DNA from: Candidatus Hinthialibacter antarcticus | GTDB lineage: Bacteria; Hinthialibacterota; Hinthialibacteria; Hinthialibacterales; Hinthialibacteraceae | Direction: 5' to 3' | NCBI GenBank assembly: GCA_030765645.1 | Contig: JAVCCE010000037.1 | Location: forward strand, 1-42,179 | Length of the DNA stretch: 42,179 bases | Shown: positions 1 to 42,179 of the stretch, piece by piece | How the letters are laid out: every line of letters starts with the position of its first letter | How positions within the stretch are numbered: the stretch's first letter is position 1 | The notes under the pieces: generated by a model | What the model was told of the DNA's origin: nothing | The model's database searches: none | What the model saw: only the letters and a program-made list of their open reading frames with translations | Program-made: the position numbers and the translations under genes

Positions 1-255
1 CGATTTTTGGATCAATGGATCGCCGAAGCCAAGGCATCCGACGTTCGAATGCTGTATGGAATGGCGAAGACGCTGGAACGGCATCGAGACGGCTTGTTGA
101 ACTATTACCGCTTCCCGATTTCAACCGCTCCACTCGAGGGAACCAACAATAAAATCAAAACCATGAAACGCCAAGCCTATGGATTTCGAGATCAAGAATT
201 CTTTAAACTCAAAATCATGGCCATCCATCAATGTAGGTACTCATTTACCGGATGA
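1..255 (+). CDS. ISL3-like transposase, C-terminal fragment
   Basis: The frame is open to the left edge, so this is only the last 84 codons of a transposase. The segment APLEGTNNKIKTMKRQAYGF followed by FFKLKI is the typical end of the ISL3-type DDE transposase domain: the E of LEG is the likely last catalytic acid, and the NNKIK..KR..YGF block is the family signature. The stop codon lies three bases before the apparent end of the element at 258, so the gene runs into the terminal sequence. The rest of the gene and the other element end are outside the window, so activity cannot be judged. The family call is from recognition of the motif. Confidence 0.8.
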   Translation, partial: RFLDQWIAEAKASDVRMLYGMAKTLERHRDGLLNYYRFPISTAPLEGTNNKIKTMKRQAYGFRDQEFFKLKIMAIHQCRYSFTG

Positions 256-258
256 ACC
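219..258 (+). mobile_element. Right terminus of an ISL3-like element
   Basis: The last 40 bases of the transposase region end in ACCGGATGAACC. Read on the other strand they match, with about four differences, the first 40 bases of the two repeats at 6514 and 42003. Shared sequence that ends at the same base in three places marks 258 as the element boundary. A target duplication cannot be seen because the other end is missing. Confidence 0.65.
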
Positions 259-5872: not shown

Positions 5873-6454
5873 ATGAGAAAAGGCTTTACACTTATCGAAC
5901 TGTTGATTGTTGTTGCTATCATCGGCATACTCGCGGCGATTGCGGTACCGAATTTTTTGAATGCGCAAATGCGAGCGAAATTGGCGCAGGTTGAATCGAA
6001 TTTCAAAGCCCTGGGCACGGCTTTTGAATTATACCGCGTCGACCACGGCATGTACGCCCTTCATGATCCAAACCATGTTCAAAACATTTTAGGCAATGGT
6101 CTCACGACCCCGGTTGCGTATATCGCGCGCATACCGGTAGATATCTTCCAATCGGGTTCGCTCGCGCAAACAACGTCGATGGCGACAAATGCGCCGCGTG
6201 AACTTCACCCGGAACCTTTCTACTACCCCGCATTTGGCGCACCAGATTTAGATACAATCCCACAGCGTGGATCAAATGACTTAACCTTGCGTTTTATTGA
6301 TGACAAAGAGCAATATCAAAAAGCGCAGGCCATGTGGCCTTGGGGCCGTTACTGCGTTAGCGTCGGGCCGGATGAAATTCACAACTATCCCGGCGTATAT
6401 CGTGTAAGTAACGGCATGAATAGTTCTGGAGACATTATAAAAGTTCTGCCTTAA
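5873..6454 (+). CDS. Type II secretion/type IV pilus-like pseudopilin
   Basis: A 193-residue prepilin with a class III leader: MRKG then F5, E9 and the hydrophobic helix. Cleavage by prepilin peptidase is expected after G4. The mature N-terminal helix ends in VPNFLNAQMRAKLAQVESN, the style common in GspG-like pseudopilins of Planctomycetes-like and candidate-phylum bacteria. The globular part has no family I recognise. The start has a GGGGA site. The gene stands alone with its own promoter and terminator; no secretion ATPase, platform protein or peptidase gene is near it. It shares its first 40 or so residues with the pseudopilin at 15115, but the C-terminal parts differ. Confidence 0.88.
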   Translation: MRKGFTLIELLIVVAIIGILAAIAVPNFLNAQMRAKLAQVESNFKALGTAFELYRVDHGMYALHDPNHVQNILGNGLTTPVAYIARIPVDIFQSGSLAQTTSMATNAPRELHPEPFYYPAFGAPDLDTIPQRGSNDLTLRFIDDKEQYQKAQAMWPWGRYCVSVGPDEIHNYPGVYRVSNGMNSSGDIIKVLP

Positions 6455-6475: not shown

Positions 6476-6511
6476 AAAACGCTCAGGCCGGTTGGTTTGA
6501 GCGTTTTTTTT
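6476..6511 (+). terminator. Rho-independent terminator of first pseudopilin
   Basis: The arms AAAACGCTCA and TGAGCGTTTT enclose a 12-base loop and are followed by a run of T. It begins 22 bases after the pseudopilin stop. Confidence 0.85.
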
Positions 6512-6513
6512 AG

Positions 6514-6690
6514 GGTTCATCCGGTAAGTGAGTAATTACCTTGATGGATGGTCATTTTTTTGATTCAGAAACGGGCTCCGTCATATCAAAAATTGACAAA
6601 CCAATCAAGCATGGGGGCAACTCTGGGAGCGCCTGTGCATAAGGGCCTGAAAGACCGCACTGAAGCGAGCAGAGTTGTACCCATGCCTGA
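6514..6690 (-). repeat. 177-bp composite repeat, copy A (IS end plus hairpin)
   Basis: This copy matches 42003-42179 at all but 7 of 177 positions, without gaps. Its first 40 bases are the reverse complement of the ISL3-like element end at 219-258. The next stretch is similar to the last transposase codons but carries stops and a small deletion. The remainder contains a long imperfect hairpin at 6609-6686. It could be a decayed or non-autonomous derivative of the insertion sequence. The true right boundary may extend past 6690, since the other copy runs off the window. The strand given is that of the implied transposase remnant. Confidence 0.75.
6609..6686. repeat. Long hairpin inside repeat copy A
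   Basis: The outer arms are CATGGGGGCAACTCTG (6610-6625) and CAGAGTTGTACCCATG (6670-6685), which pair at 14 of 16 positions. An inner GGGCC-TGAA-AGACC element lies at the tip and is imperfect here; copy B has the perfect stem GGGCT-TGAA-AGCCC. It could fold as RNA or as cruciform DNA. Confidence 0.6.
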
Positions 6691-6830
6691 TACAGCAAAA
6701 GATCAAGGATTCACGAAAAAGCATCAAAAAACGCAATTCAATTTGTGATAAAGTACCCAAATACCAGAAGAACCTTTTTTAGTATCCTGAACAGACTTCA
6801 AATTCTAAATAATAACCAAGAAGGTTTTCG

Positions 6831-42002: not shown

Positions 42003-42179
42003 GGTTCATCCGGTAAGTGAGTACTTACCTTGATGGATGGCCATTTTTTTGATTCAGAAACGGGCTCCGGCATATCAAAAATTGACAAACCAATCAAGCA
42101 TAGGTGCAACTCTGGGAGCGCCTGTGCATAAGGGCTTGAAAGCCCGCACTGAAGCGAGCAGAGTTGTACCCATGCCTGA
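42003..42179 (-). repeat. 177-bp composite repeat, copy B (IS end plus hairpin)
   Basis: Same orientation as copy A at 6514. It begins 13 bases after the tatD stop and runs off the window, so its length is a minimum. The IS-like first 40 bases match the transposase end at 219-258 more closely than copy A does. The hairpin (42098-42175) has a perfect tip, GGGCT-TGAA-AGCCC. Confidence 0.75.

Follow-up and report, generated by a model that had tools for sequence, protein, structure and literature searches.

A REP-like palindrome carried by an ISL3-derived MITE and also found outside it in the genome of Candidatus Hinthialibacter antarcticus

IS-derived MITEs such as RUP, Nezha, Correia/NEMIS and QMITE2 have been reviewed previously (PMC10969869), and the repeat described here resembles them in being short, non-coding and high-copy, with imperfect TIRs that correspond to the termini of a resident IS as well as target duplications and AT-rich intergenic targets. 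It differs in that its parent is an ISL3 element, a term absent from that review (PMC10969869), and in that constraint is strongest in an internal hairpin, which is also found outside the MITE. This hairpin in turn resembles the GTAG- and CGTC-tagged REP/BIME sequences (PMC2817692, PMC3733652), which are lineage-restricted, extragenic imperfect palindromes present in more than 100 copies, located near 3' ends and mostly between convergent or unidirectional genes (PMC3733652), with subfamilies that use alternative complementary stem bases. However, REPs measure 20–40 nt compared to ~80 nt here, and our hairpin lacks the GTAG or CGTC tag, flanks none of the three RAYT-like genes found in the genome and contains a long, near-invariant mismatch core. 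RAYT genes flank GTAG REPs only, CGTC REPs having none. The hairpin is outside the described GTAG and CGTC superfamilies on three features, namely length, tag and RAYT association.

Palindromes of REP type that lie regularly inside another inverted repeat have also been described (GTAG-15 of A. variabilis and CGTC-1 of H. neapolitanus; PMC3733652), but in the present case the palindrome is shared by two shells, one of which is an ISL3-derived MITE flanked by 8-bp duplications. BOX, RUP and SPRITE of Streptococcus pneumoniae (PMC3049150) are likewise high-copy, structured intergenic repeats, of which SPRITE is terminator-like; compared by description rather than by sequence, they differ in that no BOX-like order of modules was seen here. 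The element adds a new and well-preserved case to a known type of bacterial repeat; its hairpin is unusually long and constrained.

Anatomy of the type-A MITE and its ISL3 parent

The window analysed here is one whole contig of 42,179 nt (JAVCCE010000037.1, handle C37) from the 5.15-Mb, 78-contig genome. An initial annotation had described a 177-nt repeat in two gap-free copies (6514–6690 and 42003–42179), and this was borne out by an ungapped alignment with 96% identity, although the repeating unit proved larger than claimed. Because the contig ends within the second copy, 177 nt is not the unit length: when 30 copies were aligned on the IS-like terminus, similarity extended beyond base 177 as far as a second terminus (...TACCGGAAGAACC), and 6514–6690 was found to cover the left two thirds of a unit of 261 bp. 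Units of this type (type A) mostly measured 258–263 bp, with more than 20 near-full copies, and had no internal ORF of at least 90 aa. The 177 nt folded with z = -4.1. The insertion target of the unit at 6514–6774 was the T-tract in a terminator-like stem that follows a type IV pilin-like gene (Table 1).

Table 1. Coordinates of the repeat elements and their parts in the window
Feature	Position	Strand	Basis or remark
Right end of autonomous ISL3-type element	1–258	+	Last 84 codons of DDE_Tnp_ISL3 transposase (1–255); right terminus 209–258
Left 8-bp target-site duplication TTTTTTAG	6506–6513		T-tract of terminator-like stem after pilin gene 5873–6454
Complete type-A MITE, 261 bp, ISL3-type ends	6514–6774	+	Family alignment and sizes
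Segment from ISL3 right (transposase 3') end at 209–258	6514–6563	+	Consensus 49/50, this copy 43/50
Inner left arm, common to type B, not IS-derived	6564–6607	+	Comparison of AL and BL consensuses; IS comparison
Hairpin stem extension within inner left arm	6604–6607	+	Part of 6564–6607
REP-like hairpin	6608–6688	+	Covariance model R1, 94.8 bits
Inner right arm, beginning common to type B	6689–6749	+	Consensus comparison
Segment matching IS left end (GGTTCTTCYGGTATTTGRGTACTTT)	6750–6774	-	23/25 to the first 25 bp of contig C66
Right target-site duplication TTTTTTAG	6775–6782		Perfect 8-bp repeat
Second type-A MITE, cut by contig end	42003–42179	+	Hairpin at 42097–42177

The parent element is known from end fragments on separate contigs. 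Its right end opens the window, where the fragment at 1–255 matched PF01610 (E 3e-21) and the left part lies off the contig, and its left terminus is at the start of contig C66, 101 bp upstream of an ATG opening MSTSLLYH, taken here as the putative transposase start. The first 40 bases of the repeat had been read as an ISL3-like terminus in reverse; the inverse match to the transposase gene end in the window stood, with an IS-derived part of ~50 bp, but the decayed transposase 3' end said to follow it did not, as IS similarity past base 50 was at about chance level and the next ~44 bp are not transposase. The terminus match was found 0 times in shuffled sequences, which excludes chance, and a genome search with the 19-nt terminus allowing up to 3 mismatches gave 73 + 77 matches compared to 1 for the reversed control, or ~150 left termini.

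ISL3 elements typically generate 8-bp target duplications. An exact 8-bp repeat flanks the unit at 6514–6774, and among the 24 elements with both ends taken from a 2.36-Mb contiguous sample, 9 had exact 8-bp direct repeats and 15 matched at 7 or more of 8 positions (0.5% exact in the null), with no exact 7- or 9-bp duplication. The element at 6514–6774 is an ISL3-derived MITE, and this part of our reading is well supported. The initial proposal of a non-autonomous family moved by an ISL3-like enzyme is supported by the presence of both IS ends, imperfect TIRs, the 8-bp duplications and the number of termini; mobilisation presumably occurs in trans by the transposase of the parent element. The probability that this is an ordinary truncated IS relic beside a chance hairpin is close to nil: the left 50 bp do correspond to an IS end, but both IS ends, the target duplications and the near-full copies refute it, and the earlier suggestion of an IS relic adjoining a structured RNA was wrong for this copy.

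Two further arrangements were considered and rejected. The hairpin does not belong to the body of a full ISL3 element, since copies of the hairpin exist that lack IS ends, and none is present in the IS right end. A hairpin-free ancestral MITE was also not found, with 53 of 62 sampled ISL3-type left ends having a hairpin nearby; the single full-length candidate without one (C4:67244) retained a 13-nt hairpin remnant and is a deletion. Many contigs (e.g. C9, C24, C27, C36, C53, C54, C70, C73, C75 and C77) have their start ~100–150 bases away from an ISL3-type terminus. The repeats thus interrupt the assembly, and all copy numbers given here are lower bounds, and for assemblers it is of practical relevance that many of the contigs examined end within them.

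Copy classes of the hairpin and the type-B shell

About 250 full copies of the hairpin were found in the genome, and a pattern for its core gave 228 matches (up to 3 mismatches), exceeding the 150 left termini. Copies were classified in an unbiased sample of 2.36 Mb (46% of the genome, picked by contig and not by content). Among 114 full hairpins, 26 were in type-A elements, 28 in a second shell (type B), 2 were chimaeric between A and B, 21 retained the inner flanks only (core copies) and 37 were solo, meaning that they had no shared flank (1 or 2 of these resemble MITEs with diverged flanks and were excluded from flank tests). The hairpin was thus rightly singled out at the outset as a separate thing, and the contrary outcome named there, a hairpin never found without the IS end, is contradicted by these 37 copies without IS or other MITE flanks.

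Type-B units are ~188 bp long, have inverted ends (AGAAGCCATCTCAAAA...TTTTGAGATGGCTTCT) and enclose the same hairpin core. About 45 bp to the left of the hairpin and ~20 bp to its right are common to both types, so that type A resembles a type-B core with ISL3 ends. We tentatively call type B a MITE; it had no consistent target duplication, and its classification as a TA-duplicating MITE was rejected since its flanks were inconsistent.

Hairpin identity was 79% among solos and 79% between solos and type-A copies, compared to 92.6% among type-A copies, which makes the MITE copies one young branch. Certain solo pairs were 92–95% identical and had flanks with chance-level similarity. The best reading of these data is that of a REP-like hairpin family, older and independent, that two shells came to carry later. 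We regard as very probable that the type-A element is a MITE built from ISL3 ends around a non-coding core that carries an older, independently dispersed and constrained REP-like hairpin. The lineage-restricted palindrome would have been captured first by the type-B shell, after which ISL3 ends (~50 bp of the IS right end, ~25 bp of its left end) would have taken over a B-like core, giving rise to type A, moved in trans by the ISL3 transposase, and re-amplifying the hairpin. The order of B before A and the transposition in trans are what we infer, while MITE anatomy, target duplications, copy number, hairpins outside MITEs, covariation and lower hairpin divergence were observed directly. If so, a REP-like palindrome was caught and re-amplified through an IS-derived MITE in a genome where solo copies, the type-B shell, chimaeric tandems and the ISL3 shell are found side by side.

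It is possible, if rather doubtful, that the solos are instead the remains of old MITEs whose shell decayed while selection or homogenisation kept a hairpin that never moved by itself. Consistent with this, the solos had neither target duplications nor empty sites (searched inside other repeats), the 21 core copies kept inner flanks with unrecognisable ends, and constraint on the hairpin exceeds that on the shell (see below). However, the solos share a sub-variant (pair 18 G.G, pair 19 U-A) seldom seen in MITE copies, the 92–95% identical pairs lacking flank similarity are hard to obtain by decay alone, and the solos are concentrated at gene 3' ends, which type-A, type-B and core copies are not to a significant degree.

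This last difference was established with simple longest-ORF gene calls. Outside ORFs of 80 aa or more were 33 of the 37 solos, 16 between convergent, 13 between tandem and 4 between divergent genes, compared to length-expected numbers of about 6, 17 and 10 (p = 7e-5 for convergent); 28 of the 33 were nearest a gene 3' end, and 21 of these 28 were antisense to that nearest gene. A TTTT run followed the hairpin on the minus strand in 9 of 37 solos and on the plus strand in 2 of 37, and given these few runs most solos are not classical intrinsic terminators. Base counts in the solo flanks revealed an A preference on the left only and no GTAG or CGTC tag at the ends. No neighbour gene recurred at hairpin copies; a neighbour gene as mobiliser was rejected, with recurring families looking like large paralogue families of the genome.

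Structure and constraint of the hairpin

Folding of the hairpin across copies, which had been proposed as a check, revealed that stem bases covary. In 44 diverse copies, 91.9% of stem cells were paired, double changes affected 8 pairs (48 cells compared to 16.3 in shuffled alignments), and the covariation score was 0.152 compared to at most 0.065 in slid controls; the aligned hairpins are related, so the shuffled and slid controls do not translate into probabilities. The opposite pattern was seen at the internal mismatches, with G.A, A.G, G.A and C.A at pairs 20, 21, 24 and 25 kept in 35 of 36 solos. Within 21 near-complete MITEs, chosen with a mild bias by partial matches to the ends plus 15 hairpin bases, the hairpin diverged by 0.038 per site compared to 0.054–0.110 in the other segments (permutation p < 0.0002), or 2.4 times less than the rest. 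The palindrome copies have diverged enough to separate a conserved four-mismatch core from positions at which only pairing is retained, and this separable core makes the search for a binding protein practical.

The near-invariant tandem G.A and neighbouring mismatches amid covarying stems could also point to a MITE-borne structured RNA or mRNA regulator whose internal loop is non-canonical and conserved, as could the constraint on the hairpin inside MITEs and the more stable folding of the plus strand than the minus strand in 30 of 37 solos. We consider such an RNA quite unlikely. A search of the window against Rfam 15 gave only a tRNA at gathering score and no credible match at the element, strand comparison gave no clear excess of G.U (G.T in DNA) over A.C outside pairs 10 and 12, and most solos are antisense to the nearest gene; moreover, there are hundreds of copies with no recurring neighbour, and the hairpin is absent from 13 relatives.

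In solos, the stem extends into locus-specific complementary flanks by a mean of 2.84 bp compared to 0.87, above all 2000 shuffles, which may reflect selection, palindromic targets or template switching in quasi-palindromes. Mutational template switching, rather than selection, as the source of both the covariation and the complementary flanks would fit this extension and is conceivable, though we lean against it, because it should erase the mismatches at pairs 20, 21, 24 and 25, which are kept in about 97% of solos. Even less probable than the structured RNA, in our view, is that the solos form a palindrome class of their own, mobile or regulatory, with a near-invariant mismatch core and a stem reaching into locus-specific complementary flanks, for which the MITEs are secondary hijacking vehicles; here the stem extension suggests either that they inserted into the middle of palindromes already present or that copying involved a fold-back step. 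For an older REP-like hairpin later carried by MITEs, the likeliest role, still tentative, would be that of a stem-loop located at the 3' ends of transcripts, which would act on either strand as a terminator-like or protective structure; a protein, perhaps the very enzyme by which the hairpin was once dispersed, might recognise its near-invariant mismatch core.

Distribution, RAYT-like genes and side observations

A DNA search of 60 genomes gave no match, the 13 relatives (all other genomes of the phylum examined) had none by covariance model or core pattern, and the exact core pattern was not found in GTDB genome contigs; a lineage-restricted hairpin family is the best reading of these searches. 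The genome contains three Y1_Tnp (RAYT-like) genes, at C74:60111, C42:9182 and C1:146816, bordered by other palindromes of the CTTGCCCTTGCCACCC type, GTAGGGTGGGTTCTTAACCCACC and GGGGAGGGCGAACCTCCTGGTGAGCCGC, respectively. As none of the three is flanked by the hairpin, they were rejected as its cognate RAYT, although in a genome that is 96.5% complete a RAYT gene may be missing. Downstream of the Y1_Tnp gene at C1:146816, two hairpin copies follow at a distance of a few hundred bases.

The palindrome GGGGAGGGCGAACCTCCTGGTGAGCCGC that borders this Y1 transposase gene on C1 was also found elsewhere: at C76:13119–13335, a type-B shell encloses it (GGGGAGGGCGAACCTCCTGGTGAGCCGC...) instead of the hairpin, so that one shell has two unrelated palindromic cargoes. 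Chimaeric tandems occur at two loci (L060 and L065), and both these and the second cargo of the type-B shell speak for capture of the hairpin. At C74:115947–116437, a tandem array holds three hairpin units with 205-bp spacing, in which units 2 and 3 have the ISL3 left end and the array closes with a type-B right end, an apparent chimaeric stage.

Relatives of the ISL3 transposase were found beyond the window as well. A transposase fragment in a Candidatus Hatepunaea meridiana MAG was 70% identical, and the genome itself has, at C11:200538–200955, another ISL3 transposase fragment that is only distantly related (36% identical). A type-A MITE also lies at the edge (1–150) of the viral contig IMGVR_UViG_3300035698_020518, beside capsid/major head, portal and head-tail adaptor genes; the contig is possibly a vehicle of spread or a prophage of the host. 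The stretch adjoining the ISL3 fragment on C11 is 89% identical to positions 1641–1865 of the same viral contig.
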